Of a stretch of DNA of 44,627 bases, positions 20,643-37,228 are shown piece by piece (position 1 is the first letter of the stretch; each line of letters begins with the position of its first letter). The translations under genes and the position numbers were made by a program. Origin of the DNA: Clostridia bacterium (GTDB lineage: Bacteria > Bacillota > Clostridia > Christensenellales > Aristaeellaceae); contig JAFPWU010000020.1 of NCBI GenBank assembly GCA_017412715.1, forward strand, positions 1 through 44,627. The letters are read 5' to 3'. The notes under the pieces were generated by a model. The model saw only the letters and a program-made list of their open reading frames with translations. It did no database searches and had not been told where the DNA came from.

Positions 20643-20682
20643 GCAAACTACTGAAGTAGCAAAGCGTTTACCTGTAGTTTGC
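20643..20682 (-). terminator. inverted repeat at the 3' end of the DUF6528-like gene
   Basis: GCAAACTAC (20643-20651) and GTAGTTTGC (20674-20682) pair over 9 bp around the stop codon of the minus-strand gene. No T run follows, so it may mark the transcript end or protect it. Confidence 0.35.
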
Positions 20683-21660
20683 GTTCCAGATTCTGGCACG
20701 GTAGACGGCTGTGTGCAGAGGCACCTCGATATATTTGTCGGTATCGGAATCATAGAGATGGAGGGCGGCGGAGTCCCATATCTGCCAGGTCCCATCAGCG
20801 ATGGTCTGAACGCTGATGCTGCCCGCACTGGAACAGCTTTTCGTGTTTGCTTGGAGCATTTGATGGCTTCCGGGATAATCCATGTCCCACTTTCCAAGGA
20901 CTTTGTCGTAAATGAAAGGCGCGGAAGAGATCACCCAGAGCGTATCGGGATTCCCGTAGGAAGCAAATACATCGTGTCCGTTGGCGATGGGCAGCCTGAC
21001 GCGCAGCTCCCTGCGCTCCGTCAGGCCGGGGGCGGAGGGAGAACCTGAGAATTCATAAGCTGTCAGAGTGCTTTTTCCTACGGCCCAGAGCACTTGCATA
21101 TCAGGATCCCACAGGAGCCCGTGAGCGTCGATAAAATCATACTGGACATAGCCCTGATTGCTGTTTTCAGGATAAATACGAATGAAGTTTCCCGTACTCG
21201 CTGCGATTACAACACAGCCGTTGGGCAGCAATTCAATAGCGTGGGGATTATCGTGCGGATCAAGCGTATCCTGCCACACGCATTCGCCGGTGGGGTACTG
21301 TGCTATCGCGCAAAAGCCGCCGGAAGCGCAGGTGAGCAGAACCTCTTTGCCATGCTGCGGATGTCTGCGAAGACGAGCATCGGAAGGGAATGTATATCGG
21401 TCTGTATCGCAGAAACCCTGCTCCTCCGATGGCGACCAATGCCAGGCAACCGTATATTCGTATGCCTGAAGATCCATGGAAATGACCGTGATCTGCCGGT
21501 TTTGCTGATCGGTCAGGCCGATCAGAAGCTCGCCTTTTTCCGCGGCACCTTTATGCATAGACAGTCCTCCCTCCGCGAGACAGAGCAGGAAACAGGAGAT
21601 CAGAAAAATGAATTTTATCTTCAACCTTTTCACTCTCTTGCATATTAACGCTCTTTGCAT
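20668..21660 (-). CDS. exported beta-propeller-like protein (DUF6528-like)
   Basis: A 330-residue product with an export signal (IKFIFLISCFLLCLAEGG). The rest reads as repeated beta-blade segments: ELLIGLTDQQNRQITVISMD, EVLLTCASGGFCAIAQYPTG, HAIELLPNGCVVIAASTGNFIRIY, HGLLWDPDMQVLWAVG and GTWQIWDSAALHLYD. This matches propeller proteins classed as DUF6528, probably carbohydrate- or surface-linked. The frame overlaps the LacI gene end by 16 bases. The true start may instead be TTG 21624, which has GAGAG 8 bases upstream. It belongs to the minus arm of the sugar locus. Confidence 0.7.
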   Translation of the reverse strand: MQRALICKRVKRLKIKFIFLISCFLLCLAEGGLSMHKGAAEKGELLIGLTDQQNRQITVISMDLQAYEYTVAWHWSPSEEQGFCDTDRYTFPSDARLRRHPQHGKEVLLTCASGGFCAIAQYPTGECVWQDTLDPHDNPHAIELLPNGCVVIAASTGNFIRIYPENSNQGYVQYDFIDAHGLLWDPDMQVLWAVGKSTLTAYEFSGSPSAPGLTERRELRVRLPIANGHDVFASYGNPDTLWVISSAPFIYDKVLGKWDMDYPGSHQMLQANTKSCSSAGSISVQTIADGTWQIWDSAALHLYDSDTDKYIEVPLHTAVYRARIWNANYR

Positions 21661-22649
21661 GTGCTGCTGCTTTCACGGATAATCAGTTTGGGAATGATCG
21701 CAGCTGCCTGCTTGAAGGTTGAATTGCCATCATTGATTCGGCTCAGCAGAATCGCGACGGCGACCTTGCTTTCGGCGGCGGCGTCGTAACTGACGGTCGT
21801 TATGGAATGAGGCAGGTACTTAGAGAAGTTGGCATCGTCAAAGCTGACGAGGGACAGGTGCTCCGGGGCGGAAAGACCATGCTCAGAGAGGGCACGCAGC
21901 GCGCCCAAAGCAATGGTATCATAGCCGGCGACCACTGCCGAAGGCAGTTCATTTGCCTCCAGAAGGCGGCTCATGCATTCGTAGCCGCATTCCTCGTTGC
22001 GCTTTTCGGACAGGTAGATATTTTCCGGTCGCAGGGGGATCCCCTTGCTTTCCAGCCTTTTCTGGAGATATTCCAGCCGTTTTCCCACCAGATTATCTCC
22101 GATAAAGGCAAAGGATTGATGATCCAGGGAGAGCAGATAATCCGTGATCAGCTGGATTGCATAATTCTCGTCAACGGAGACTGTATCAAAATCCCGGGAA
22201 GTACAGTTAAGGCCGATAATCACCAGAGGCATATCGTTTACTCCGGACAGGGCATGTATGGACGGGGAAACATCGCTTTCTTCCGTAATGAAGATGACGC
22301 CGCTTACGTTCAGCGAAATTAATTCTGCAATACATTCCTTTTCAATGTCGGTAGAGAAATTGCTCAGCATAACAACGGTTTTGTATCCCTTGTGATGCAG
22401 GAGTTCTGTCAGTTCCGTTACAAGGGAGGCATAGTAAAAGCTGGTGATTTCTGGACAAATGACCCCTACGATCTGCTTCTGCACAGCTTTTTTCTTTGCT
22501 CGGTTCGGCTTGGCGTAACCGATTTGACGGGCTTCGGAGATGACCTTATCCCGGGTGGATGCACTGATATCGCTGGAGCCGTTTAATGCTTTTGAAACGG
22601 TTGTTTTATTGAGCCCGAGGCGTTTTGCGATGTCATTGAGCGTAGCCAT
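21645..22649 (-). CDS. LacI-family transcriptional regulator
   Basis: A 334-residue LacI/GalR regulator. The N-terminal helix-turn-helix (TLNDIAKRLGLNKTTVSKALNGSSDIS) and hinge helix are followed by a periplasmic-binding-like effector domain (VGVICPEITSFYYASLVTEL, AVVAGYDTIALGALRALSEHG, LSLVSFDDANFSKYLPHSITTV). The ATG at 22649 is used because GAGAGGA lies 7 bases upstream. It sits between the PF04734-type gene and the propeller gene and most likely represses the divergent sugar locus through the TTTCGAAA palindromes at 24157-24386. The effector is likely the imported sugar or its phosphate. Confidence 0.94.
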   Translation of the reverse strand: MATLNDIAKRLGLNKTTVSKALNGSSDISASTRDKVISEARQIGYAKPNRAKKKAVQKQIVGVICPEITSFYYASLVTELTELLHHKGYKTVVMLSNFSTDIEKECIAELISLNVSGVIFITEESDVSPSIHALSGVNDMPLVIIGLNCTSRDFDTVSVDENYAIQLITDYLLSLDHQSFAFIGDNLVGKRLEYLQKRLESKGIPLRPENIYLSEKRNEECGYECMSRLLEANELPSAVVAGYDTIALGALRALSEHGLSAPEHLSLVSFDDANFSKYLPHSITTVSYDAAAESKVAVAILLSRINDGNSTFKQAAAIIPKLIIRESSSTCKER

Positions 22650-22686
22650 ATACGTATCCTCTCTTCTTCGGAAATGGGGAAGGGTG

Positions 22687-24156
22687 TTATTGCACCCAGA
22701 GACTGTCCATAAGGGCAAGCATTTTTTCTACAAGGATTTCTCCACTTTCGGGGCCACAGGTGGTAGATGCCGGCGCGCTGGAATAAGATCCGCCGAGTAT
22801 TGCCTGAACGGTGGGAAGATAATCCAGATAGTCATCGGTCATTTGCAGGACGACTGGCTGCTCGGCTTTCGCCCGTGCTTTGATCCTGAATGCGTAGTCT
22901 ATAAACAGCTCGAATGGACAGCTTGCAATGACCATATCATTGATTCGCCACGCATGTATTGGAGCGTCCACATATTTCGAGCGATTTTGCTGAACATATC
23001 GGCTGTAAATCCCCATCGGCTCAAAAATACGCACGAGATCTTCCCCGCGCAGCGGGTGATCAGCGGAAAAAGAGGCTTTTTCGGCTTTGAGTGTGGCGAC
23101 AGCCTGCAGGTATTCTTCTTCGGAAACCAAACGAATGGGAAGACGGACCGTGGCTGTGCGGTGACAGAAGACAGGAGAGGCGTGGATCCAGAGCCGCGCC
23201 TTTTTGTATCCGCGGTAAACAGAATCAGAGATCCGGGCAGCTATATCATGGCAAAGGTCGGCCATGTCGAAATTGCGCAGCACCTCACCGGACTGGGCGC
23301 TCCATGCTTGCAGTTCCTGTACATTGCTTTTGCTGATCTTTACCAGGTCCACGGGACTCTGATCGCCGGAAGCACCGCAGAGGGAGAGAACAGGGATGGC
23401 ACCGAGACGCTCGCGGATAGCATCTCTCGTGTAATACCAGTAATCCGCGGTGAGGAAGGAATGAAGTTCGAATACCTGGGAGGGACAAGGCACACATACG
23501 GCCACGCCGGTTATTGCACCTGCGGGATCAAAGGTGAAGATCATATCGACGCTGTGATCGCTGGCACCCTCAAAACCAAGAAAATTCTCCTGAGAACAGA
23601 CGCCATACATATGGGTTTTTATTTTTCCTTCTGATTCTTTGAAAAGAGGACGCCGATTGAAGGCGACAGCGGCATAATCGGAAGCGACAGCGATTTTTCC
23701 GGGCTTTCGGCTTTGCAAGGCTTCTCGGATCGCCTGTGATACGCGTTCTATCAGGAATGCGTTCAGGGCTTCGCCCTCAAGCAGGCCTTCAGGCTTTTCG
23801 GGTAGGGCAAGCAGATCCTCCCCGAAGAAGTCCAGCGCATCCTGAGAAAACAGAAAGGGTTTATCCTGAATGGAGTTATGTGTGTGCGTCGCAGAAAAAG
23901 AGATGCAGGCAGGGTCAAAATGCTCCAAATCTCTAAGTGAATTGCGAATCCTGTCAGTGATCCTGCGCGGAGGAACACACATGATATCCAGGGAAACCAG
24001 AACCGCCTGGAAGGAACCGTTATCCAGAGCCAGGGCAGTCGCGTACAGCGGGTCGTGAACGTATTTCGATATCCGGGGATAAATCTGGCCGCCATTATAA
24101 ACTGGCCTATTAGGCGTAATACTGACCTGGGACCAACCGATATGAAGATGATCCAT
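22687..24156 (-). CDS. neutral/alkaline ceramidase-like (PF04734-type) protein
   Basis: A 489-residue protein with the N-terminal domain typical of neutral/alkaline non-lysosomal ceramidases: HIGWSQVSITPNRPV at the start, VLVSLDIMCVP, the zinc-type histidine motif SATHTHNS (about 88), and GASGDQSPVD. It has no signal peptide, so it should act inside the cell, unlike secreted ceramidases. Clostridial members of this family occur in carbohydrate clusters and are generally annotated without proven substrate. Here it may hydrolyse an amide or ester on the imported compound. First gene of the minus arm, with its own promoter and operator. Confidence 0.8.
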   Translation of the reverse strand: MDHLHIGWSQVSITPNRPVYNGGQIYPRISKYVHDPLYATALALDNGSFQAVLVSLDIMCVPPRRITDRIRNSLRDLEHFDPACISFSATHTHNSIQDKPFLFSQDALDFFGEDLLALPEKPEGLLEGEALNAFLIERVSQAIREALQSRKPGKIAVASDYAAVAFNRRPLFKESEGKIKTHMYGVCSQENFLGFEGASDHSVDMIFTFDPAGAITGVAVCVPCPSQVFELHSFLTADYWYYTRDAIRERLGAIPVLSLCGASGDQSPVDLVKISKSNVQELQAWSAQSGEVLRNFDMADLCHDIAARISDSVYRGYKKARLWIHASPVFCHRTATVRLPIRLVSEEEYLQAVATLKAEKASFSADHPLRGEDLVRIFEPMGIYSRYVQQNRSKYVDAPIHAWRINDMVIASCPFELFIDYAFRIKARAKAEQPVVLQMTDDYLDYLPTVQAILGGSYSSAPASTTCGPESGEILVEKMLALMDSLWVQ

Positions 24157-24186
24157 GTTTCATTCCTCCGAAACTTGATTGGATAT

Positions 24187-24214
24187 ATTATAACAAACCA
24201 GAGGGAAAAGTCAA
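24187..24214 (-). promoter_or_regulatory. sigma-A promoter for the minus arm of the sugar locus
   Basis: On the minus strand TTGACT (24209-24214), a 16-base spacer and TATAAT (24187-24192). The start site would fall near the CGAAACT half-site at 24169-24175. Confidence 0.65.
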
Positions 24215-24228
24215 TACAAATAACATTA

Positions 24229-24240
24229 AGTTTCGAAACT
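24229..24240. promoter_or_regulatory. LacI operator candidate O1 (perfect palindrome)
   Basis: AGTTTCGAAACT is a perfect 12-bp palindrome with a central CG, the symmetry expected for LacI/GalR sites. It lies just upstream of the minus-arm -35. Confidence 0.7.
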
Positions 24241-24299
24241 GTTTTATGCATAAATTTACAATTCATTGCTATTTTGACAAAATTTCAACCATAATACTA

Positions 24300-24328
24300 T
24301 TGACACGACTCAAAATGGTGACTATAAT
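24300..24328 (+). promoter_or_regulatory. consensus sigma-A promoter for the transporter operon
   Basis: A perfect TTGACA (24300-24305), 17 bases and a perfect TATAAT (24323-24328). A promoter this strong needs repression, which fits the operator-like site 33 bases downstream. Confidence 0.88.
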
Positions 24329-24358
24329 AAGCGTGAAAGTTGCGAGAATGAACAAGAT

Positions 24359-24370
24359 AATTTCGAAACT
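24359..24370. promoter_or_regulatory. LacI operator candidate O2
   Basis: AATTTCGAAACT shares the core TTTCGAAACT with O1. It lies between the plus promoter and the first permease start, where a bound repressor would block elongation. A half-site CGAAACT also occurs at 24169-24175. Confidence 0.65.
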
Positions 24371-24389
24371 TTAGAAGGAATGAAGCGTG

Positions 24390-25325
24390 ATGAAAAATAA
24401 CAGGCGGGGGATGCTGAACGGGAAGAAGCTGAAGCGCACGATAACTCGTGAATGGCAGCTGTATTTGCTGGCGCTTCCCGCAGTGATCTATCTTTTTCTG
24501 TTTCATTATGTGCCCATGTATGGTGTGCAGATCGCGTTTAAGGATTTTGTCGCCATCAAGGGGATCGAGGGAAGCCCATGGGTGGGATTCAAGCATTTTG
24601 AGCGTTTCTTTTCCACCTACATGTTTGAAAGAGCTTTTTCCAATACGCTGATTCTTAGCTTCATGGGTTTGCTGATTGGTTTTCCGGTTCCCATTATATT
24701 GGCGCTGCTGCTGAATCAGTTACCGGGAAAGAAGTTCAAAAAAACAGTCCAGACAGTTACATATGCTCCACACTTTATCTCGCTTGTCGTGATTGTAGGT
24801 ATGATGACACTGCTGTTTTCTCCCAATACAGGGATCGTGAACAAAGCGCTTGTCCAGCTGGGGGGCCAGAAGACCAATTTCATGGGAGAGGCAAAATATT
24901 TTCGATGGATGTATGTTCTCTCAGGCGTGTGGCAATCAGCAGGATGGGGATCCATTATCTATCTGGCGGCGCTCAGTTCCGTCGATATGGGATTGTATGA
25001 GGCCGCCCGTATGGACGGCTGCAGCAGGTTCGGTTTGGTGCTTCATATCGACATTCCTTCGATCATTCCCACCTGCGTGATTATGTTTATTATGGAGATG
25101 GGCAGGCTGATGAGCCTGGGGTATCAGAAAGCGTACCTGATGCAGAACGACCTGAACCTGTCCGTCTCCGAGATCATCGATACATATACCTACAAGGTGG
25201 GACTGATTAACAATAAATTCAGCTATTCATCGGCGATTGGGCTGTTTACTTCGGTGGTGAATATCATTCTTCTGGTCGGTGCGAACACATTGAGCAGGAA
25301 GGTTACGGAAGAGAGCCTGTGGTAA
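24390..25325 (+). CDS. carbohydrate ABC transporter permease, LplB type
   Basis: A 311-residue inner-membrane permease with six helices and the ABC-contact EAA loop, here YEAARMDGCSRFGLVLHIDIP (about 210-230). It resembles LplB/YtcO permeases for oligosaccharides or complex glycosides. The ATG at 24390 is preferred over the adjacent GTG because AAGGAA is 9 bases upstream. It is followed after 15 bases by the partner permease. No ATPase gene is in the locus; such systems normally borrow a shared MsmX-type ATPase. Confidence 0.93.
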   Translation: MKNNRRGMLNGKKLKRTITREWQLYLLALPAVIYLFLFHYVPMYGVQIAFKDFVAIKGIEGSPWVGFKHFERFFSTYMFERAFSNTLILSFMGLLIGFPVPIILALLLNQLPGKKFKKTVQTVTYAPHFISLVVIVGMMTLLFSPNTGIVNKALVQLGGQKTNFMGEAKYFRWMYVLSGVWQSAGWGSIIYLAALSSVDMGLYEAARMDGCSRFGLVLHIDIPSIIPTCVIMFIMEMGRLMSLGYQKAYLMQNDLNLSVSEIIDTYTYKVGLINNKFSYSSAIGLFTSVVNIILLVGANTLSRKVTEESLW

Positions 25326-25340
25326 AAGGGGATGAGGGAT

Positions 25341-26249
25341 ATGAAACACGCGGTTCTGAACAGGAGAAAAATCCGAAGGACAAGCGGCGATATCCTTTTT
25401 GATACCGTCAACTATATTATTCTGGCTCTGGTCATGCTGATTGTGCTCTATCCATTGTATTTTGTTGCCATTGCATCATTTTCTGAACCCAATATGGTTA
25501 ATACAGGGCAGGTGGTTCTGCTTCCCAAGAGTCCCTCGCTGGATGGATATAGGAGAATTTTCAACAACGCGAAAATATGGAACGGGTATTACAACACCAT
25601 TCTTTATACGGTAGCTGGAACGGCGCTCAACATATCCCTGACGATGACGGTAGCCTACACGCTGACGGTGCATCGCTTTTCCATTAAGAAGATTCTTCTG
25701 GTCTATCTGATGATACCTGTTTATTTCAGCGGAGGGCTGATCCCGACATTCCTGCAGGTAAAGGCGCTAGGCCTGGAGAACACCCGTCTGGCATTGATCA
25801 TACTGAACGGCCTGAACGTGATGAATGCGATTATTGCCAGATCGTTTATCCGAAGCTCTGTGCCTCAGGAACTGAGCGAGGCGGCGGAAATAGACGGATG
25901 CTCCCATTTCGGGATCTTTTTCCGGATTGTGCTGCCGCTGACGAAAGCGGGAATCGCAGTGCTGGTACTCTACTATGCGGTGGCGCACTGGAACGAATAC
26001 ATGCTGGCGCTGATCTATCTACGCAACCCCAAACTGTATTCGCTGCAGATTATTCTCCGGGAGATTCTGCTCCAGAACCAGGCACAGGATTTTATGGACG
26101 ATATCGTGTCCGCAACGGAAAAACAACGTGCGGCGGAACTGATCAAGTACGGGGTGGTGATCGTGTCCTCGCTGCCGATGCTGATTCTGTATCCGTTTTT
26201 GCAGAAATATTTTGTAAAAGGAACCCTGATAGGATCAATTAAGGGATGA
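25341..26249 (+). CDS. carbohydrate ABC transporter permease, LplC/YtcP type
   Basis: A 302-residue permease with six membrane helices and the EAA motif SEAAEIDGCSHFGIFFRIVLPLTK (about 175-200). The conserved C-terminus KYFVKGTLIGSIKG is typical of the YtcP/LplC group. ATG 25341 is chosen over 25332 because AGGGG is then correctly spaced. It forms the translocation pore with the upstream permease. Confidence 0.93.
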   Translation: MKHAVLNRRKIRRTSGDILFDTVNYIILALVMLIVLYPLYFVAIASFSEPNMVNTGQVVLLPKSPSLDGYRRIFNNAKIWNGYYNTILYTVAGTALNISLTMTVAYTLTVHRFSIKKILLVYLMIPVYFSGGLIPTFLQVKALGLENTRLALIILNGLNVMNAIIARSFIRSSVPQELSEAAEIDGCSHFGIFFRIVLPLTKAGIAVLVLYYAVAHWNEYMLALIYLRNPKLYSLQIILREILLQNQAQDFMDDIVSATEKQRAAELIKYGVVIVSSLPMLILYPFLQKYFVKGTLIGSIKG

Positions 26250-26356
26250 GCGGAGAAAGGAACCCCGCGAGTTTACTTTGGCTCAAACCGATATGCGGCA
26301 TGACGTAAAGAAGTGCGTGAATCGGTTATAGCATAAACAGAAAGGAGAGAAACACG

Positions 26357-27967
26357 ATGAAAAAGAGTATCTCAATGGTCCTGACGCTGGTATTGGTTCT
26401 GTCCATGGTCTGTATAGCCATGGCGGACGGACTGTCCGATCTTGGCTTCCATGAAAGCGGAATGCCAATCGTCGACAAAGAGATCACATTACGGGGCGTC
26501 GCGAAGCAAGGTGCAAATGTGGGTGACTTTAACGACATGGTGTTCTTTGATGAGATGGGCAAGCTTACTAATGTCCATATCGAATGGGAAATGATCCCCT
26601 CAGAAGCGTGGAACGAGAAGATAGGACTTATGCTGGCCACAGGTACAGATCTGCCGGATATCTTCTACGGCCATGGCTGTCTGACGACGGACAAGGTGGT
26701 GGAATACGGCAATCAGGGTTATTTCGTGGATATGAAGCCCTACATTGAAAAATACGGAGAAAACCTGAAGATTCTGACTCAGGAAGTTACCGGGCTGCTG
26801 GATGCGGCCACCACGCCCTCCGGCGCCATTTACGCGCTGCCCGCGGTGCACGGTATCGCCTCCAACGCCAACAATGCACTCTTCCTGAACAAGATCTGGC
26901 TGGACAAACTGGGACTTGAGGTTCCTACGACCACGGAAGAATTTGTGGAAGTGCTCCGGGCTTTCAAGAACGGCGGAGACCTGAACGGGAATGGCCTGGA
27001 TGATGAAATCCCCTATAGTTTTCTGCCGGGCGATTCCGTAAACGGTATATATCCCCTGTTCGGCGCGTTCGGCCGCGTGGACAACGGAAACCATCTGGTG
27101 ACCGAAAATGGAAAAGTAATCTTCACGGCCATTGAACCCGAGTATAAGGAAGCTGTCAAATGGTTCCACCAGCTGGCCGAGGAAGGTCTGATTGACCAGG
27201 AATGCTATTCACAGGATGTCAGCATGTTGTGGTCCAAGATCCAGCAGGAGAACCCCAATGTGGGCTGCGCGTCCTTCTGGACTGCCCAGTGGGCGACGGG
27301 CGCCGAGACTATAGAGGAAGCGAACAAGACCTGGGTGCCAGTGGCTCCGCTGATTGGGCCTGCTGGCGTGCAGCTGTGGGAGCAAATCGATACGAGCGTG
27401 TTTAACATGTGCGCCTTCGCAATTACATCCTCCTGCAAATATCCCGAGATTGCGTTCCGCTGGGGTGATTATCAGTATAGCGTGGATGCCGCCCGGGACT
27501 GCAACTTCGGACCGCTGGGAGTATGTGTGAAGCAGAACGAGGACGGCTCTTACGAGTGGGTGGAAGAGGTCAACGGCGAGCCGCTTTCCTCCAACCTGAT
27601 TCGTGCCAAGTATGCACCGATGAACTATGGTATTTTTGCCAATCCTCCTTCCCGTTGGGTATTCGAGTACAATTATTTCGGAGCGACGGAGAACGAGAAG
27701 AATATCGTGCTGAATGGCAGCGTGTACGGCCCGTATCAGACGGCCAACTATTTCCCCACCATGTACCAGACGGACGAAGAGGTGGAGGTCATCAGTAACC
27801 TGAAGACTGATATCAACAGCCTGGTAGCAGAGAAGACAGCCAAATGGATCATGGACGGCGGTGTCGATGAGGAATGGGACGCCTACCTGGAACAGCTCAA
27901 GATCATCGGTATAGACGAGTATCTGGCGGCATACGAAAGTGCGTATGATCGTTACCTCGGCAAATAA
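26357..27967 (+). CDS. extracellular sugar-binding protein, LplA type
   Basis: A 536-residue substrate-binding protein of the large type-2 group that partners LplB/LplC permeases. It has a signal peptide with a likely cleavage site at CIAMA-DG (about 23). The only Cys there is not in a good lipobox (SMVC), so lipid anchoring is uncertain, which is unusual in a Gram-positive. Body motifs include LMLATGTDLPDIFYGHG, YALPAVHGIASNANNALFLNK and RAFKNGGDLNGNGLDDEIPYSF. AAAGGAGAG precedes the ATG. It should capture the substrate for the importer. Confidence 0.92.
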   Translation: MKKSISMVLTLVLVLSMVCIAMADGLSDLGFHESGMPIVDKEITLRGVAKQGANVGDFNDMVFFDEMGKLTNVHIEWEMIPSEAWNEKIGLMLATGTDLPDIFYGHGCLTTDKVVEYGNQGYFVDMKPYIEKYGENLKILTQEVTGLLDAATTPSGAIYALPAVHGIASNANNALFLNKIWLDKLGLEVPTTTEEFVEVLRAFKNGGDLNGNGLDDEIPYSFLPGDSVNGIYPLFGAFGRVDNGNHLVTENGKVIFTAIEPEYKEAVKWFHQLAEEGLIDQECYSQDVSMLWSKIQQENPNVGCASFWTAQWATGAETIEEANKTWVPVAPLIGPAGVQLWEQIDTSVFNMCAFAITSSCKYPEIAFRWGDYQYSVDAARDCNFGPLGVCVKQNEDGSYEWVEEVNGEPLSSNLIRAKYAPMNYGIFANPPSRWVFEYNYFGATENEKNIVLNGSVYGPYQTANYFPTMYQTDEEVEVISNLKTDINSLVAEKTAKWIMDGGVDEEWDAYLEQLKIIGIDEYLAAYESAYDRYLGK

Positions 27968-27977
27968 TCACGGCTGA

Positions 27978-28013
27978 TACGGGGAGGCGCTGAAAGGTGA
28001 GCGCCTCCCCGTA
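27978..28013 (+). terminator. stable stem-loop after the binding-protein gene
   Basis: A perfect 14-bp inverted repeat (27978-27991 with 28000-28013, core GGGGAGGCGCT) with an 8-base loop and no T run. It probably protects the binding-protein mRNA or partly terminates, giving more binding protein than downstream enzymes. Confidence 0.75.
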
Positions 28014-28049
28014 TATATCAACTGAAAATATGTCTGAGAGTAAAAGAAA

Positions 28050-29756: not shown

Positions 29757-29759
29757 ACC

Positions 29760-31118
29760 ATGAAAAATACGGTAGGGTTTGTATGCTTTGGCGAGGTCAA
29801 CACGCCTTTCCATCGCCTGCAGGAGAAGCATGACAGGGCGGTTCAATCGCTGAAAAGCCTGGACATCGACCTGATAGACGCGGGGATTGTGATCGATGAT
29901 CCCCAATATGAAACCGCAGACATGGCGCAGGACATCCTGAAGCGGAAGGAGATGTCGGCGCTAATCGTCTGCGTTGCAGGCTGGGTGCCCACCCACGCGG
30001 TCATCTATACGATCGATCCTTTCCGGGCGATGCCGGTGCTTCTGTGGGGCCTTTGCGGAGCCGTGGAACAGGGAAAAATCGTCACGACAGCCGAACAGGC
30101 CGGGACGACCGCAATCAGGCCTGTACTGGAAGCGATGGATTATCGCTTCAAATTCATATACAACGTCATTGGGAAACCTGAGCCGCTTGACGAGATCCAG
30201 GCTTTCCTCCGCGCTGCGTTCGCGGTTCAGCGTTTAAGACGTGCTCGTATCGGCTCCATGGGCTATCGGGATATGCTGCTCTACGGCACACAGTATGAGG
30301 GACTTTCCCTCCGGGGACAGATCGGCCCCGAGGTGGAGCCGTTTGAAATGCTGGAAATGCTGCAGCGCATGAAGCATATCACCCAGGATCAGATAAGCGC
30401 TGCGATACAGAATTTTTGCGGCGACTGGCATATCCAGAAAGCATGCGACAAAGCTGTACTGGAAAAGGGCGTGCACTATGCACTGGCGTTGGCGGAAAAG
30501 ATCAAAGAGCGCGGTTGGGATGCCATCACGCTGATCGATGTCGACGGTATGAAGAAGCTGCTGGGCTATCCGCCGGCAATTGTTTTCATGCTGCTGGAGA
30601 GGCTGTGCAGCGTATGTACCATCCCGGAGAACGATGTAATGGGTAATGTGACGCAGCTGATGGCCCGTTATGTGACGGGGCAGACTGCGCATTATATGGA
30701 ATATTATGAGTTTTTTGAACGCAGCCTGCTGATCGGTGTGCCGGATTATGTGCCGGTTACCGCGGTGAAGGATCAGGTGGAGCTTTTGCCCACCGCCTTT
30801 GGTCTGCTAGATGAAGCTCTTCTCAATGTGAGCAAGGTCAAAACGGGTTATGTGACCTGTGTGCGTCTGTATTATAAAAAGGGGCGTTATTATCTGCATA
30901 TGTACACCGGTGAAGCCTGCCCCCCGCCTGCATGGGAAGAGTTTGGCTGGGCGCCTCCGGCGCCGCAGCTGCCCAGCCTGGAGGTATTCCCGGACAGCTG
31001 CACAGTAGAGGAATTCGCTCAGAAAGTATCCGGCCAGCATGTGATCGTCTGCTACGGCAACTTCCGAAAGGAATTCAGAGAGCTCTGCCGTATGCTCGAT
31101 ATCACGATGGTGGAATAA
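29760..31118 (+). CDS. L-fucose/L-arabinose isomerase-family protein
   Basis: A 452-residue protein related to FucI-type ketol isomerases, which convert an aldose to the 2-ketose with Mn2+. The N-terminal Rossmann-like domain starts VGFVCFGEVNTPFHRLQEKH. Family-like features include VAGWVPTHAVIYTI, RIGSMGYRDMLLYGTQYEG, an acidic ENDVMGNVTQLMARYVTG segment and a C-terminal beta domain. It begins three bases after the preceding stop, with CGGAGA as ribosome binding site. Context with a kinase and aldolase fits aldose to ketose conversion. The sugar is unknown. Confidence 0.8.
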   Translation: MKNTVGFVCFGEVNTPFHRLQEKHDRAVQSLKSLDIDLIDAGIVIDDPQYETADMAQDILKRKEMSALIVCVAGWVPTHAVIYTIDPFRAMPVLLWGLCGAVEQGKIVTTAEQAGTTAIRPVLEAMDYRFKFIYNVIGKPEPLDEIQAFLRAAFAVQRLRRARIGSMGYRDMLLYGTQYEGLSLRGQIGPEVEPFEMLEMLQRMKHITQDQISAAIQNFCGDWHIQKACDKAVLEKGVHYALALAEKIKERGWDAITLIDVDGMKKLLGYPPAIVFMLLERLCSVCTIPENDVMGNVTQLMARYVTGQTAHYMEYYEFFERSLLIGVPDYVPVTAVKDQVELLPTAFGLLDEALLNVSKVKTGYVTCVRLYYKKGRYYLHMYTGEACPPPAWEEFGWAPPAPQLPSLEVFPDSCTVEEFAQKVSGQHVIVCYGNFRKEFRELCRMLDITMVE

Positions 31119-31152
31119 TTATTCGCCGGCCACGGGAGGAGATGGAATCAGG

Positions 31153-32691
31153 ATGGAGGAACTGCTTCTGGGTATAGATGTGGGCACAACATCGGTAAAA
31201 GCGTCACTCTACACGCCGTCTCATTTCCAGGTGGTCAGTGCCTGCAGGAACTATACGCTGGAGACTCCGGAAAACAATCTGGTGGAATTTCCAGCGGAGG
31301 AGTACTGGAACATAGTCTGTCAGATGACGCGCGAATTGATGGAGCGGGCGCAGGGAAAGGTGACAGCCCTGTCGCTAAGCTGCCAGGGGGAAACGCTGAT
31401 TTGCGTGGATCAGTCTGCAAAGCCGCTGCGAAAAGCAATCGTCTGGCTGGATAACAGGGCCGAAAAAGAGGCGGACGAGCTTAAGATGATGTTCTCAGCT
31501 CAAAGCGTATATGAAGTATGCGGACAGGCGGATATGGTAGCGACCTGGCCAGCGGCGAAAATACTGTGGATCAGGCGGAAAGAACCGGAGCTGTTCCGAC
31601 AGACTGCGCGTTATCTTCTTCTGGCGGATTATCTTATGCTGCGGATGACCGGGAAGGCCATCGGAGACAGCAATCTGTGGGCTTCCAGCGCCATGCTGGA
31701 TATACATACCGGTCGGTGGTGGCTGGAAATGCTGGATTATCTGGGCCTGAAAAAAGACAGGCTGCCGACCATTGTTCCCTGCGGGACGCCTGTCGGCAGG
31801 CTGCGACTGGAGGCCGCGGAGCAGATGGGGCTTCCTGCCGATTGCCTGGCTGTGGCTGGAGCACTGGATCAGACATGCAACATGATCGGATGCGGACTGA
31901 CACGCAGCGGATCCATTCTGGAAACGACCGGATCATGCCTGGCTGTCGGCGCCGTTCTGGACCGCTTCATTCCGTATAAGCCCGGGATAAAGCTGACCTG
32001 CCAGAATTTCGCTTTGCCGGGCTCCTACACCGTCCTTCAATGGTCCCAGTCCGCCGGGATGACGCTGAAATGGTTTGCGCAGCGTTTTTATCCGGAAGAG
32101 TCTGATATGGAAACGGTATATCATGAAATCGACCGTGAAGCGGAGAAGGTCCCGCCGGGATCCGAGGGGCTGGTGATGCTTCCGCATCTGACCGGAGCGG
32201 CCAATCCTGAGTACGACAGCAACGCCACTGGTGTATTTGCTGGAATACGCCTGGGCCACGGGAGGGCTCATTTCGCCCGGGCGGTCATGGAAGCGGTTGG
32301 ATGCATGCTGCGGAGAAACCTGGAGCAGATATCGTCTCTGGGGATTCAGCAGGACCATATATATTGCGCCGGCGGCGGGGCATCCAGCGGGCTGTGGCTG
32401 CAGATTAAGGCGGATCTGACGGGAAAGACCATGGTTCCGATCAAAACGAGGGACAGCGCCTGCCACGGTGCGGCCATACTGGCGGGCGTCGGCTCAGGCC
32501 TGATGGATAGTATTCATTGGGGTGCTCCCCCTTCGGATGGAAGGGAGACGATGCCTGAGGTCAGCAACCGGACCGTATATGAAGAAACATATCGGAACTA
32601 TATCCTGCTCTATGAGGCAATGAAACAGTACTTTGCGGTGGTCGGAGGAAAAAAATTCTATGAAAAAAAGGATCGGGCCCCCTTTTTTTGA
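31153..32691 (+). CDS. FGGY-family carbohydrate kinase
   Basis: A 512-residue kinase of the xylulokinase/FGGY group that transfers phosphate from ATP to a ketose. The N-terminal half has the phosphate loop LLGIDVGTTSVKASLY, IVWLDNRAEKEADEL, and the catalytic Asp in AGALDQTCNMIGCGL (about 237). The C-terminal half has LPHLTGAANPEYDSNATG and the adenine-site CAGGGASSGLWLQIKADL. The end overlaps the next gene start by 32 bases. It should phosphorylate the product of the upstream isomerase. Confidence 0.93.
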   Translation: MEELLLGIDVGTTSVKASLYTPSHFQVVSACRNYTLETPENNLVEFPAEEYWNIVCQMTRELMERAQGKVTALSLSCQGETLICVDQSAKPLRKAIVWLDNRAEKEADELKMMFSAQSVYEVCGQADMVATWPAAKILWIRRKEPELFRQTARYLLLADYLMLRMTGKAIGDSNLWASSAMLDIHTGRWWLEMLDYLGLKKDRLPTIVPCGTPVGRLRLEAAEQMGLPADCLAVAGALDQTCNMIGCGLTRSGSILETTGSCLAVGAVLDRFIPYKPGIKLTCQNFALPGSYTVLQWSQSAGMTLKWFAQRFYPEESDMETVYHEIDREAEKVPPGSEGLVMLPHLTGAANPEYDSNATGVFAGIRLGHGRAHFARAVMEAVGCMLRRNLEQISSLGIQQDHIYCAGGGASSGLWLQIKADLTGKTMVPIKTRDSACHGAAILAGVGSGLMDSIHWGAPPSDGRETMPEVSNRTVYEETYRNYILLYEAMKQYFAVVGGKKFYEKKDRAPFF

Positions 32692-33382
32692 AGTGGGTCC
32701 CAAGGCTTATCTGTACGGAGAAGAGGCTTTGGAGCTGGCGAGAATCGCAGAAGAAGCCTCCAGAGAAACAGGCGTATCGGTGATCTATACGCCTCAGCTG
32801 ACTGACCTCCGGCTGATCCGGCAATATACAGAAGATCTGGTACTCTGTGCGCAGCATATGGATCCCATCCCGGTGGGCAGAGGGCAGGGAAGCATTCTTC
32901 CGGAAGCTCTGCGGGCTGCGGGCGCGGATGCGGTGATGCTCAATCACTGTGAAAAGCCCATGACCATCGAGAACCTCTCAAAGGCGATCAGCCGGGCGGC
33001 GGATTTGGAGATGCTGAGCATTGCGTGCGCATCCTCCTGCAGGGAAGCATCCATGATTGCCTTGCTGCATCCGGATATCATTGTCGTAGAACCCTCTGAA
33101 CTGATCGGAACGGGGGTCACCAGTGATATAGACCTGGTCACCGCGTCCAATCAGGCGGTACGGGGGATGGATCCTCATATCCTGGTGCTGCAGGGGGCCG
33201 GCATCAGCACGCCGGAGGATGTATACCGGGTAATTCTGGCCGGCGCGGACGCCACAGGCTCATCCAGCGCCGTGTGCAGGGCCAGGGATCCTGGCAGAAT
33301 GCTCAGAGAAATGCTGCGAGCCGCGGAGCAGGCCTATATGGACAGAAAAAACAGGGAGGCGAAAGACAAAAATGGAGTTTAA
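32660..33382 (+). CDS. triosephosphate isomerase-like enzyme
   Basis: A 240-residue TIM-family protein. The catalytic His is in LNHCEKPM (about 95) and the catalytic Glu in VVEPSELIGTG (about 145). The phosphate loop is GAGISTPEDV (about 185). The N-terminal Lys appears in EVGPKAYLYG, but the canonical NxK asparagine is absent, so it is a divergent paralogue, probably for another phosphosugar such as a tetrulose phosphate (compare EryH in erythritol catabolism). ATG 32660 lies inside the kinase gene end and uses GGAGG 11 bases upstream. Confidence 0.85.
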   Translation: MKKRIGPPFFEVGPKAYLYGEEALELARIAEEASRETGVSVIYTPQLTDLRLIRQYTEDLVLCAQHMDPIPVGRGQGSILPEALRAAGADAVMLNHCEKPMTIENLSKAISRAADLEMLSIACASSCREASMIALLHPDIIVVEPSELIGTGVTSDIDLVTASNQAVRGMDPHILVLQGAGISTPEDVYRVILAGADATGSSSAVCRARDPGRMLREMLRAAEQAYMDRKNREAKDKNGV

Positions 33383-33998
33383 AGTTGTTCAGAAAGAGCT
33401 GGAACTGCAGTCACGCGGATGGATTCCGACGTTTCACGACGTGACGAAGGAAGTGTGTGAAATTGTGCGGCTGTCAGGCGTGAAAAACGGCACGGTATGC
33501 ATAGCGTCCCATCATACGACGTGCTCCGTTATGGTGCAGGAATGCTCGCATGATATGGACAGTTTCGATCTGGAATTTCTGCAGCATGATCTGCTGGATA
33601 TCATGCGCAGGCTGATTCCGGATTATACAGAGGAGCACCAGTACAGGCACCCTGGCCCGATCCACGCGCAGTTCGGAAGATATGTAAACGAACCTGGAAA
33701 CTACACCAGCATGAACACTGACGGGCATTTGCGGTCCGTGTTCTTTGGCCGGAGCGAAACGATGACAATCAAGGACGGGATGCTTGACGGCGGCGAATTC
33801 GCGAATATATACTTTATTGACTGGGATCAGGTGCGGGCGCGTCACCGCCAGCTGAATATTACGGTTATGGGGACCACGGAAGACGTGGAGGACCGTAAAT
33901 GGAAGGGCGGAGAGACTATCAACACGCTGCGCAGGTTTACCGACAAAGAAAAGGCGTATATGCCGGAGTTCGATCATCAGCTGAAGGACAGAATATGA
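33372..33998 (+). CDS. YjbQ-family (UPF0047) protein
   Basis: A 208-residue YjbQ/UPF0047 protein. The family core is present: VCIASHHTTCSVMVQEC (His and Cys cluster, about 45), the metal-site-like YRHPGPIHAQFGRYVNEPGN insert, NTDGHLRSVFFGRSETMTIKDGML (His about 118) and IYFIDWDQVRARHRQLNITVMG. YjbQ proteins show weak thiamine-phosphate synthase activity, but the real role is unsettled. It overlaps the TIM-like gene and shares ATGA with the SIS gene, which ties it to sugar-phosphate metabolism. Confidence 0.88.
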   Translation: MEFKVVQKELELQSRGWIPTFHDVTKEVCEIVRLSGVKNGTVCIASHHTTCSVMVQECSHDMDSFDLEFLQHDLLDIMRRLIPDYTEEHQYRHPGPIHAQFGRYVNEPGNYTSMNTDGHLRSVFFGRSETMTIKDGMLDGGEFANIYFIDWDQVRARHRQLNITVMGTTEDVEDRKWKGGETINTLRRFTDKEKAYMPEFDHQLKDRI

Positions 33999-34612
33999 GC
34001 AGTGGAATAGATAAAGAACGGCTGGCGGAAAAAGTGAAGGAGGCCTTCACGATTCAGGCTGATGCGTTAACGCATCAGCTGGATCGCCTGAAACGTGCGG
34101 AACTTGTGCGCACTGCGGAAATGCTGGTCGATGCGCCGGTCATTGGCGCTTCTGCGTGCGGGCATTCCGGGATCGCGTGCATGCATTTTGCACATCTGAT
34201 GTGCTGTGTTGGAAAGGCGGCCAGGTTTATTTCTCCGGCGGAGGCTGTCCATGGCGGCCTGGGCTTCCTGCAGCCGGGCGGTATCATTCTGCTTGCTTCC
34301 CGGGGAGGACGGACAGCGGAGCTGGCGCCTGTTCAAGATTACTGCAAGGAGAATCATATCAAAACCATCGTGGTGTCGGAAAATGCAGGTTCCTTGCTTG
34401 CAAAAGATGCGGATATGGTTCTTCTCATGACGGTGACCCGTGAAATAGATCGGAATAACTGTCAGGGTACGACCAGTTTTCTTGTTATGTCCGCCATATT
34501 TGAAGTGCTGCAGATGCTCATGATTGAGATTATGGATTTTTCAGATCAAAGATTTGCGGAGATTCATCCCGGCGGGGCGGTGGGAGAAAGGCTGAGAGGA
34601 GAAAGGGCATGA
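33995..34612 (+). CDS. SIS-domain sugar-phosphate isomerase (KdsD/GutQ-like)
   Basis: A 205-residue sugar isomerase domain protein. The SIS fold shows PVIGASACGHSGIACMHFAHLM (about 45), GIILLASRGGRTAELAPVQDYC (about 92) and a closing EIHPGGAVGERLRGE that matches the HPGGALGKRL signature of arabinose-5-phosphate isomerases. The CBS domains of full KdsD are absent. ATG 33995 overlaps the previous stop (ATGA), so translation is coupled. Likely interconverts aldose and ketose phosphates in the pathway. Confidence 0.88.
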   Translation: MSSGIDKERLAEKVKEAFTIQADALTHQLDRLKRAELVRTAEMLVDAPVIGASACGHSGIACMHFAHLMCCVGKAARFISPAEAVHGGLGFLQPGGIILLASRGGRTAELAPVQDYCKENHIKTIVVSENAGSLLAKDADMVLLMTVTREIDRNNCQGTTSFLVMSAIFEVLQMLMIEIMDFSDQRFAEIHPGGAVGERLRGERA

Positions 34613-35307
34613 AGGTGTTTTTGGATACTGCCGATCTGGAGGAGATCAGAGCGCTATATGATATCTATCCGCTTGATGGCGTGACAACAAATCCTACCAT
34701 CCTGGCCGCCGAAAAAAAAGCGCCATACGAAACGCTGACAGAGATACGGAGCTTTTTGGGGCAGGAAGGTGTCCTCCATGTTCAGGTGATTTCAAGAAAT
34801 GCAGAGGATATGATTGAAGAAGCGTATCAAATCTGTAACCGTCTGGGAAGCAATACCTATGTAAAAATACCTGTTGTGCCAGAAGGGCTGAAAGCAATCA
34901 GATTTCTGGCTAAAAATGGAATGCGTGTGACAGCGACAGGCATTTATACGCTGCAGCAGGCTTTCTGGGCCGGCAAGTCTGGTGCGGCGTATGTGGCGCC
35001 TTACGTCAACCGAATCGAAAATCTTGGCGCTGATGGTATTCAGACTGTTTGTGACATCCAAAACTGCTTTGTCCGAAATGGAATAGCGACGGGCATACTT
35101 GCTGCAAGTTTCAAAAACATCCGGCAGGTGATGGCACTGGCTGAAAACGGGGTTGCCTCAGTGACAGTAGCGCCGGCGATACTTCGGGGAATGCTTGAAA
35201 ACGCAAGCGTTGATCTGGCGGTTGACCGGTTCATTAATGATTTCGAGAATGCGTTTGGAGTCAGTGCAACCATGAGCACCATTGCAGCAGTCCTAGAGGG
35301 AGAATAA
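34609..35307 (+). CDS. fructose-6-phosphate aldolase/transaldolase-like protein
   Basis: A 232-residue FSA/TalC-type class I aldolase. The Schiff-base Lys is in YVKIPVVPEG (about 85), with MKVFLDTADLEEI at the start, GVTTNPTILAAE (about 25), the active Tyr in TATGIYTLQQAFWAGKSG (about 110) and AYVAPYVNRIENLGADG. Such enzymes split a ketose phosphate into a dihydroxyacetone-type unit and an aldehyde phosphate. It starts in an ATGA overlap with the SIS gene. It probably supplies the C-C cleavage step of the pathway. Confidence 0.92.
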   Translation: MKVFLDTADLEEIRALYDIYPLDGVTTNPTILAAEKKAPYETLTEIRSFLGQEGVLHVQVISRNAEDMIEEAYQICNRLGSNTYVKIPVVPEGLKAIRFLAKNGMRVTATGIYTLQQAFWAGKSGAAYVAPYVNRIENLGADGIQTVCDIQNCFVRNGIATGILAASFKNIRQVMALAENGVASVTVAPAILRGMLENASVDLAVDRFINDFENAFGVSATMSTIAAVLEGE

Positions 35308-35310
35308 CGC

Positions 35311-37014
35311 ATGATGATCAGGCTGAGGCATACGCAGGACCATCCGATATCAGTTGTTTATCCGCAAGACGGCACGGAAAGCGTATTCGATATGGCGGAA
35401 AATCTGGCTGGCTTGATCAGGGATATCTGCGGGATATATCCGACACTGCTTTGTGACGCGGACATGGGCGCAAATCAGGAGACCGCGGCCATTTTGCTGG
35501 GTGAGACAGAGCTGGCTGTGTCAGTTCAGGCATTGCGGGATATTGGGTACGGGGAATGTGCTTTCTACTTAAGCGCCGATAAGAAAAGCCTTGCCGTGGC
35601 GACACGCACGGAAACGCTGCTGCCGGAAGCGATAAGAAACTTGACGGAGACGATGACCTGGCACCAGGGTGAATTATTGCTGCAGGACCGGCTGATGAGC
35701 CGGCACATCTACAGCATAGGCATGCTGCGGCACGTCCCTCCGGTTTGTGCCGGAAAGCGAGTTCAGACGCGCAGAAGCCTTGATCTGTGCGATCAGATCG
35801 TAATCGAAGGTATTACCCAAAGAGATTGGGAAGATTATCAGTCCGCGCTCCTGGAGGCACGGTTTAAAAAGAAATACGAAAACAAGATAGGGGGCAATTC
35901 CTTTTTTAGATATGAGAAGGAGGAATGCTCCTTATATGTCTATTATACATCCTTTAATCGGACGATGCGTCTATTGGCGGAGCCAGTGCGCAATGTCCAT
36001 ATGGACAGGAAACGGAATGGATCGTCAATAGTGACACCGTTAATGACCGTGATCGGGGGAAGGTTTTCCACTGAATCGAGATATTTAAACTGCGATGCTG
36101 GAAGCGGCAACATGGGCTATGTGTTCAGATTGGAGGATGGCCGATTTGTTCTGGTGGACGGGGGGATGGACTCCGGAAACTATGCGGAAAATATTTATCG
36201 TACGCTCTCAGAGCAGAGCCCTGAGCCCTCAAATATTGTGATAGCCTGCTGGTTCCTTTCCCATACGCATATAGACCATACAGGGGCGTTCATGACAATG
36301 GCGGAAAAATACGCAGACAGGATAACCGTGGAGGAGATTGCTAGTAATTTTCCGTCCATGGCGGACGCGGCCTGTTTCAGGGAAGCATGGAATACACGGC
36401 GCATAAAGGAGCATATCCATCGGTATTTCCCTGACGCGAAGTATTCAAAGGTGCATACAGGGCAGAAGCTTTCCTTCACCGGAGCAGAGGTGGAAATTCT
36501 GTATACGCAGGACGATCTTGTGCGCAAATCTCTGTCCCTGGCCAATGAGACATTGAACACCGCTTCGATTTGCATGCGGATTACCATTGGCGGAAATACG
36601 ATCATGCTTCCGGCGGACTGCGACGAAACCGCAAATCATATTCTTCTGAATATGTATGGTGATTATCTGAAGAGCGATATCCTGCAGGTATGCCATCACG
36701 GAGGATGGGGCGGAACAACTGAATTTTACGCATCGGTTGATCCAGAAGTTGCTATTTTCAGTACGTCGGATGAGCTTTATTCCAAATATCTGCAGATCCG
36801 ATATAACCATGATTTGGTATATGATATGCATGTTCAGGAGGCGTACAACAACGCGGAGCGATGCAGGGTATTTACCCTTCCTTATCATCCGGCTCATAAA
36901 AACCTTCCCGAAGATCCGAAGGAAGATTGCCTGTATACAGAAGCAAAACAGCTGGAAGCTCTGGCTTCTCTGGAAAACCTGAAGAAGAAAAACGCTGTTA
37001 TGCAGCAGAAATAG
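35311..37014 (+). CDS. MBL-fold metallohydrolase with extra N-terminal domain
   Basis: A 567-residue protein. Residues about 1-130 resemble the non-catalytic N-domain of GH20/GH67-like enzymes (AAILLGETELAVSVQALRDIG, KSLAVATRTETLLPEAIRNL). A metallo-beta-lactamase fold follows at about 230-530, with the metal motif WFLSHTHIDHTGAFM (about 312), a ligand Asp in MLPADCDETANH and His pair in QVCHHGGWGGTTEF. No signal peptide. Last gene of the operon, 3 bases after the aldolase. It may open a lactone or cleave an ester of the sugar substrate. Confidence 0.82.
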   Translation: MMIRLRHTQDHPISVVYPQDGTESVFDMAENLAGLIRDICGIYPTLLCDADMGANQETAAILLGETELAVSVQALRDIGYGECAFYLSADKKSLAVATRTETLLPEAIRNLTETMTWHQGELLLQDRLMSRHIYSIGMLRHVPPVCAGKRVQTRRSLDLCDQIVIEGITQRDWEDYQSALLEARFKKKYENKIGGNSFFRYEKEECSLYVYYTSFNRTMRLLAEPVRNVHMDRKRNGSSIVTPLMTVIGGRFSTESRYLNCDAGSGNMGYVFRLEDGRFVLVDGGMDSGNYAENIYRTLSEQSPEPSNIVIACWFLSHTHIDHTGAFMTMAEKYADRITVEEIASNFPSMADAACFREAWNTRRIKEHIHRYFPDAKYSKVHTGQKLSFTGAEVEILYTQDDLVRKSLSLANETLNTASICMRITIGGNTIMLPADCDETANHILLNMYGDYLKSDILQVCHHGGWGGTTEFYASVDPEVAIFSTSDELYSKYLQIRYNHDLVYDMHVQEAYNNAERCRVFTLPYHPAHKNLPEDPKEDCLYTEAKQLEALASLENLKKKNAVMQQK

Positions 37015-37132: not shown

Positions 37133-37228
37133 TAATTCCGATGTTATTCCCATGATATACAGGCTGAAAAGCCCTGCCGCGAACCGCGGAGAATGCAGCG
37201 GGTAAAAATGGACGGAGGTGAACCGAAC

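Follow-up and report, generated by a model that had tools for sequence, protein, structure and literature searches.

The question raised by positions 20668-37014 of contig JAFPWU010000020.1 (assembly GCA_017412715.1; Clostridia bacterium, family Aristaeellaceae) is why a sugar gene cluster should encode three further proteins, TIM-like, YjbQ and SIS, between its FGGY kinase and its aldolase. We refer to the whole stretch of DNA analyzed, 44,627 nt in length, as the window. On the plus strand, the gene order is two permeases, a solute-binding protein, a glycosidase-like protein, a FucI-type isomerase, an FGGY kinase, the TIM-like protein, YjbQ, SIS, an FSA-type aldolase and a metallo-beta-lactamase (MBL) fold protein; a divergent unit on the minus strand carries genes for a ceramidase-like hydrolase, a LacI regulator and a DUF6528 protein. 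The initial annotation had suggested an undescribed pathway for an unusual sugar. All of the genes that it named were recovered as open reading frames (ORFs) with family support, which is weaker for the names FucI and YjbQ, and it had left the glycosidase-like and ceramidase-like genes unnamed. We found that the TIM-like, SIS and YjbQ genes are a conserved module, which occurs beneath three or more upper routes and is not specific to one odd sugar. We read the locus as a probable kinase-isomerase-aldolase sugar route that includes this unusual isomerase module.

The module was evident across 297 sampled genomes of the order, scanned at thresholds of E ≤ 1e-10 for YjbQ and, with a profile, E ≤ 1e-40 for the TIM-like protein. 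The FucI family was found in 5 of these genomes, and YjbQ and the TIM-like protein in 11 each; the latter two sets were identical, comprising the same 11 genomes across eight genera. These 11 co-occurrences are not independent because adjacent genes travel together. Each of the 15 contigs carrying a TIM-like match had a YjbQ gene no more than 665 bp from it. Neighbours within 8 kb were counted at 80 YjbQ loci, which are the best 80 of 405 relatives recovered with a YjbQ alignment against named genomes and come mainly from metagenome-assembled genomes of gut Clostridia. Genes for SIS were present at 71 of these loci, TIM at 58, both at 57, FGGY kinases at 43, DeoR regulators at 27 and FSA at 20. 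The 43 well-flanked loci, with at least 5 kb on either side, included 41 with SIS, 35 with TIM and 29 with FGGY, and two (L057 and L107) had neither SIS nor TIM.

The upper routes found at the same 80 loci differ. According to their BLAST labels, FucI-type genes are carried by 11 loci (with an identity of just 26% in the case of L124), NagA- or NagB-like genes by 22, and AraA-like or amidohydrolase genes by 14. Scans of representatives returned NagA at 171 bits (under the cut-off of 226), an AraA-related isomerase, a DeoR regulator and a weak NagB-like match at 25.8 bits. FucI shares none of the 80 loci with either of the other groups, and its co-presence with NagA/B was observed 0 times against 3.0 expected (chance about 0.02). 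We rejected strict exclusivity of FucI and NagA/B; because locus L170, from the FucI search set, carries FucI together with weak NagA/B matches, their separation is a tendency only. The order FucI-FGGY-TIM-SIS-YjbQ-FSA is found at three loci (L085, L104 and L106).

The TIM-like protein (32660-33382, plus strand) is of the archaeal triose-phosphate isomerase (TPI) type. It passes the PRK04302 model (176.5 bits, cut-off 132) and fails the TPI model TIGR00419 (78.5 bits versus a cut-off of 130.6), on which a separate, ordinary TPI of the same genome scores 192.9 bits. All 10 genomes tested encode an ordinary TPI above the cut-off, separate from the TIM-like gene. The active site of TPI consists of Asn-x-Lys, His and Glu; the TIM-like protein keeps Lys15, His96, Glu98 and Glu144, and the Asn is replaced by Gly (Gly13) in 71 of 71 aligned rows. 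Given this substitution and the ordinary TPI genes, a second housekeeping TPI is an unlikely reading. The SIS protein (33995-34612, plus strand; PF01380, 51.3 bits) is a KpsF/GutQ-like phosphosugar isomerase without CBS domains. Its nearest PDB match is an uncharacterised SIS protein (3fxa, E = 6e-34), and among curated families it lies nearest the arabinose-5-phosphate isomerases (KpsF/GutQ/KdsD). The earlier claim of two extra phosphosugar isomerases is supported, in that the TIM-like and SIS genes have the look of such enzymes and the ordinary TPI is encoded separately; the conclusion that they imply one unusual sugar needs correcting, since the module recurs under several upper routes.

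The third module protein (33372-33998, plus strand) is a long form (208 aa) of the YjbQ/UPF0047 family, scoring 87.9 bits on PF01894 (cut-off 27) and slightly under the cut-off of NCBIfam TIGR00149 (64.8 versus 67.75 bits). Among the members seen, long YjbQ shows the strongest conservation, with 84% mean column identity across six genomes, and an alignment of 17 long and short forms shows no variation at His48, Glu57, Asp73, His93 or His119. We propose that YjbQ is a sugar-phosphate isomerase or epimerase. Its AlphaFold model (predicted local distance difference test, pLDDT, 83) gave 17 Foldseek matches at E ≤ 0.001, all to YjbQ-family or hypothetical-protein chains; a function could not be taken from the fold, as only YjbQ-fold proteins matched below that value. 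Short YjbQ forms adjoin TIM-like genes at four loci (L036, L037, L038 and L041), with two per locus in L036 and L038, and in the vicinity of some of the four there are genes for FGGY kinases, AraA-like isomerases and importers of the RbsABC type.

Upstream of the module, the gene at 29760-31118 (plus strand) encodes an aldose-ketose isomerase related to FucI, AraA and SftI (SftI, 31.2 bits). Its Fucose_iso_C match of 26.9 bits falls just short of the Pfam gathering score of 29.3, and the profile of its family matches AraA (4r1o, E = 1.3e-5). The family conserves Glu290, Glu314, Asp329 and His427, of which Glu290, Glu314 and His427 align with AraA positions that we take to be metal ligands. A substrate could not be assigned from the sequence, which has no phmmer match in PDB and whose family profile reaches AraA and FucI only broadly; enzymes of the FucI/AraA type normally act on C5-C6 aldoses. 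The FGGY kinase (31153-32691, plus strand; FGGY_N and FGGY_C) is XylB-like, with 290 bits on the XylB model (cut-off 380) and 184 bits on the autoinducer-2 kinase model (cut-off 528). We placed it in a tree of 63 kinases, three others having been omitted for length or unknown letters; the tree was built by a quick method with midpoint rooting and contains some long branches. A supported clade of 41 holds 29 of the 30 FucI-context and 10 of the 13 NagA/B-context kinases, interleaved, and the 11 AraA-context kinases fall outside it. The window kinase pairs with that of L076, a NagA/B locus. Because the kinases of both contexts mostly share one clade, we infer that the FucI and NagA/B routes converge on one kind of ketose, which the former would reach by isomerising an aldose and the latter by deaminating a 2-amino-aldose.

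Downstream of the module, the product of 34609-35307 (plus strand; TAL_FSA, 174 bits) had been labelled a transaldolase. Gln59 and Tyr131 mark FSA aldolases, and Glu and Phe mark transaldolases. The window protein has Gln59, Lys86 and Tyr132; because of Gln59 and Tyr132 we assign it as an FSA-type aldolase and reject the transaldolase label. Escherichia coli FSA structures match it at E of about 1e-42, and it scores 203.1 bits on NCBIfam fsa_talC_mipB, under the cut-off of 245.95. Gln59 and Tyr132 are present in 26 of 28 FSA rows; the other two rows, with Glu and Phe, come from L055 and L092, where each is a second copy.

We tentatively propose that the cluster is an operon induced for the breakdown of a glycoside or oligosaccharide, in which a ketose phosphate passes through an isomerase relay, and we put the chances of this proposal somewhat short of even. 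The LplBCA importer would take up the glycoside or oligosaccharide, the cytosolic glycosidase-like enzyme would release the sugar, and the ceramidase-like hydrolase may remove an acyl or similar group. The FucI-type enzyme would then convert an aldose to a ketose, with a 2-amino-aldose as the alternative start, and the kinase would phosphorylate the ketose, we propose at C1. TIM-type enzymes shift a carbonyl from the carbon beside a phosphorylated CH2 to the next carbon, and the TIM-like/YjbQ/SIS relay would carry the carbonyl group down the phosphorylated chain, or epimerise next to it, until the phosphate came to be terminal. A C6 chain would take three shifts, one per protein, to give a ketose-6-phosphate; from a 6-deoxyhexose, the relay would end at a 1-deoxyketose-6-phosphate. 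The product could enter glycolysis or be cleaved by FSA to glyceraldehyde-3-phosphate and dihydroxyacetone. Cleavage after a 6-deoxyhexose start would give hydroxyacetone, a good FSA partner, and glyceraldehyde-3-phosphate. LacI would repress both units via a common control region. Chain length is the weakest part of the relay proposal, and a C4/C5 version is its main rival.

The initial annotation knew of no characterised pathway with this gene set, and our literature search likewise found no paper describing it among the best full-text matches, as judged by titles and the start of abstracts, although a description elsewhere is possible. Papers using the term UPF0047 included none on sugar pathways, as judged by title. 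Some known systems resemble the cluster in part. Autoinducer-2 degradation by LsrK, LsrG and LsrF follows the same logic of an FGGY kinase, a carbonyl-shifting step and C-C cleavage, but with unrelated isomerase and cleavage enzymes. The L-fucose route (FucI-FucK-FucA) shares a FucI-related isomerase and an FGGY kinase with the present cluster, in which, by contrast, the FucI match is below the Pfam cut-off, three extra proteins precede the aldolase, and no class II aldolase was found among the 15 genes scanned. SftI of the sulfoquinovose transaldolase pathway (SftI, SftT) is the nearest curated isomerase family (31 bits for the window protein and 54 for that of L112), and a TalC/FSA-family aldolase or transaldolase is present in both. 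The cluster differs from this pathway in scoring far under the SftI cut-off of 700, in having a kinase, and in an FSA that is of the aldolase type by its residues. The published counterpart comes from the erythritol/L-threitol pathways. In the erythritol pathway (PMC10733421), LerI, a TpiA homolog, shifts the carbonyl of L-erythrulose-1-phosphate, EryC is a 3-epimerase and DerI is the last isomerase. That system runs from a kinase through three isomerisation steps on a ketose-1-phosphate, in which a TIM homolog makes the carbonyl shift (PMC10733421). Our gene content fits such a scheme, which the cluster's reactions are proposed to follow. Here, however, a FucI-type aldose isomerase replaces the polyol dehydrogenase, YjbQ replaces EryC, the TIM is of the archaeal type (PRK04302), SIS replaces the RpiB-type DerI (no RpiB match occurs among the 15 cluster genes), and an FSA aldolase is added.

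Several observations weigh against the relay. The FucI family occurs in 30 of 391 genomes of the class, the window's included, and at the 29 other FucI loci, several of them on short contigs, an FGGY gene is nearby at 20, a ceramidase-like relative adjoins FucI at 18 and a DeoR gene is present at 14. All three module genes are found at just 11 of these 29 loci and none at 14; the module and FucI are often at separate sites. FSA is near 5 of the 29 loci, as it is near only 20 of the 80 YjbQ loci. From the 30 FucI genomes we picked 14 in which the FucI locus had at most the TIM-like gene of the module: the TIM-like and YjbQ genes again went together, both present in nine and both missing in the other five (G338, G642, G560, G506 and G543), four of which are less than 90% complete and one of which (G338) is 97% complete with 6% contamination. 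FucI and FGGY in these five adjoin a class III aminotransferase and a Gfo/Idh protein (Pfam-confirmed for L159 and L168, by homology for the others). Because these genomes have FucI and FGGY without TIM-like or YjbQ genes, the kinase product can have another fate, and both FucI and the kinase are able to operate in the module's absence. Phosphorylation by XylB-like kinases is usually at the far end of the sugar, which would make a carbonyl relay unnecessary. The activities of the module enzymes are predictions from sequence, and isomerase chemistry is tied to YjbQ solely by its genomic company; the YjbQ fold is unlike any known isomerase fold in the Foldseek comparison, and the family's sole curated name is secondary thiamine-phosphate synthase. 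As a separate observation, L159, L168 and their relatives combine FucI and FGGY with a ceramidase-like gene (L162 has FucI and FGGY alone), and L159 also has a MatE exporter.

The alternative of a shorter chain, which we consider unlikely, is that the FucI-type isomerase and the kinase produce a tetrulose- or pentulose-1-phosphate, with YjbQ acting as the EryC epimerase, TIM as LerI and SIS as DerI. This route would end at erythrose-4-phosphate or arabinose-5-phosphate, which FSA could cleave to glycolaldehyde and glyceraldehyde-3-phosphate. It matches the three-enzyme logic of the erythrulose module, in which LerI is a TpiA homolog (PMC10733421). The position of SIS nearest the curated arabinose-5-phosphate isomerases also favours it. 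Chemical reasoning, however, indicates that a tetrulose phosphate would not be cleavable by FSA; the NagA/NagB-like upper routes suggest hexosamine-derived sugars, and the usual C5-C6 range of FucI/AraA-type enzymes also counts against this alternative.

An ordinary terminal ketose phosphate is, in our view, rather improbable. The TIM-like protein would then be a second TPI using the FSA product glyceraldehyde-3-phosphate, SIS a side isomerase and YjbQ an accessory protein (a mutarotase, a phosphatase or thiamine-related). The XylB-like kinase and the retention of all TPI acid-base residues except Asn agree with this explanation, but the separate TPI in 10 of 10 genomes and the Gly in 71 of 71 rows do not, and the strict TIM-YjbQ pairing persists without FSA nearby. 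We regard as very improbable that the genes build a sugar, such as an amino sugar: the aminotransferase and oxidoreductase beside L159 and L168 and the MatE exporter are in keeping with biosynthesis, whereas the window encodes an importer and an aldolase as well as a glycosidase-like enzyme, is under LacI control, and has no aminotransferase among the 15 genes scanned. That the genes are chance neighbours with no common pathway is hardly credible, for although MBL is found at only 2 of 80 module loci and relatives of the glycosidase-like protein are missing from the 296 other genomes of the order sample, the genes overlap and the same set recurs in distant genera.

The organization of the cluster supports a single regulated unit that looks catabolic. 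Spacing is +6 bp (LplB-LplC), +107 (LplC-LplA) and +82 (LplA-glycosidase) in the importer part, then +3 (glycosidase-FucI), +34 (FucI-FGGY), −32 (FGGY-TIM), −11 (TIM-YjbQ), −4 (YjbQ-SIS), −4 (SIS-FSA) and +3 (FSA-MBL). The tight, overlapping packing described earlier is thus confirmed, with distances between −32 and +34 bp from the glycosidase-like gene through MBL. The importer consists of LplB-type (24387-25325; PF00528, 66.8 bits) and LplC-type (25332-26249; PF00528, 50.5 bits) permeases and an LplA solute-binding protein (26357-27967; PF01547, 44 bits), all on the plus strand. The glycosidase-like protein (28050-29756, plus strand), in which no signal peptide was seen by eye, has a GH20/GH84/GH115/GH138-like architecture (GH, glycoside hydrolase family) in its AlphaFold model (pLDDT 83), with 6hzf as the top Foldseek match (E = 5.6e-16), followed by GH20 and GH84 hexosaminidases. 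Because the fold matches scatter across these four families, no sugar can be assigned to it. Relatives, which give weak NAGLU_N or DUF4838 matches, were found when the class sample was searched, in 13 of its 370 other genomes. In residues 259-268, Asp259, Cys263, Cys265 and Cys268 are invariant in 16 relatives, and the cysteines are possibly a metal-binding cluster beside the active site.

The divergent control region (24157-24386) is 230 bp long. A sigma-70 promoter match of 12/12 at 24300-24328 (plus) and one of 11/12 at 24214-24187 (minus) lie within it and top all 20 matches in 17.8 kb, a total close to the 16.4 averaged over shuffles. Of the window's three copies of the palindrome TTTCGAAA, two are also inside this gap (24231-24238 and 24361-24368), compared with a shuffle mean of 0.79 window-wide, at least three being reached in 6 of 100 shuffles. 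They may serve as operators; in their central CG they are like the operators of the LacI family. The LacI-family regulator (21645-22649, minus strand; LacI and Peripla_BP_3), whose start we set by eye at the ATG ahead of the helix-turn-helix (the mechanical ORF extends to 22718), does face the plus-strand genes as first described, and more fully it lies within a three-gene unit. That unit begins with the distant ceramidase-like hydrolase (22687-24156, minus strand), which matches PDB 4wgk (E = 0.004) and has no Pfam match alone; PF04734 (neutral ceramidase) is matched by 6 of 13 aligned relatives (best E 4e-6) and not by the window protein. Its last gene encodes a DUF6528 protein (20668-21660, minus strand; PF20138, 38.7 bits, cut-off 23.5) with a likely signal peptide by eye.

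The MBL-fold protein (35311-37014, plus strand) matches PF00753 at residues 266-482 (33.4 bits), and the roughly 250 residues ahead of this domain have no Pfam or NCBIfam family match; on visual inspection they look similar to the N-terminal domain found in GH20/GH67-like glycosidases. Because MBL is so seldom linked to the module, it adds little to the pathway idea, and its earlier use as a pointer to an unusual sugar finds little support. The GC content of the cluster is indeed lower (51.9%) than that of the left (59.5%) and right (56.2%) flanks, and the order sample's five other genomes of the same genus all lack the FucI, YjbQ and TIM-like genes; recent acquisition, which the initial annotation had read from composition, is therefore plausible. 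Beyond the cluster, a phosphoribulokinase/uridine-kinase-like protein (37193-38014, plus) begins 178 bp past the MBL gene, with no module link seen; 38035-39798 (minus) is an unusual fusion of a MatE transporter with an HATPase_c_2 (anti-sigma kinase-like) domain, and 19355-20488 (plus) is a single ORF with GNAT acetyltransferase and HD domains.

The UPF0047/YjbQ family has so far had little beyond a weak label as a thiamine-phosphate synthase. Its function becomes directly testable through the strict genomic pairing of YjbQ with a SIS isomerase and a diverged TIM, inside kinase-aldolase operons of gut Clostridia. A broader idea, which we hold to be doubtful, is that sugar-linked YjbQ proteins are sugar-phosphate isomerases or epimerases and that, together with TIM-like and SIS proteins, they make up a general machine for carbonyl walking, moving the carbonyl of a ketose-1-phosphate from C2 to C3, C4 and C5 and resetting stereocentres. 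If so, rare hexoses, 6-deoxyhexoses and deaminated amino sugars would be turned into one terminal-phosphate ketose for glycolysis or FSA, and a UPF0047 subfamily would gain its first metabolic role. If the relay operates, bacteria of herbivore and other animal guts could channel several rare sugars into glycolysis, and the module would be a source of new sugar-phosphate isomerases.

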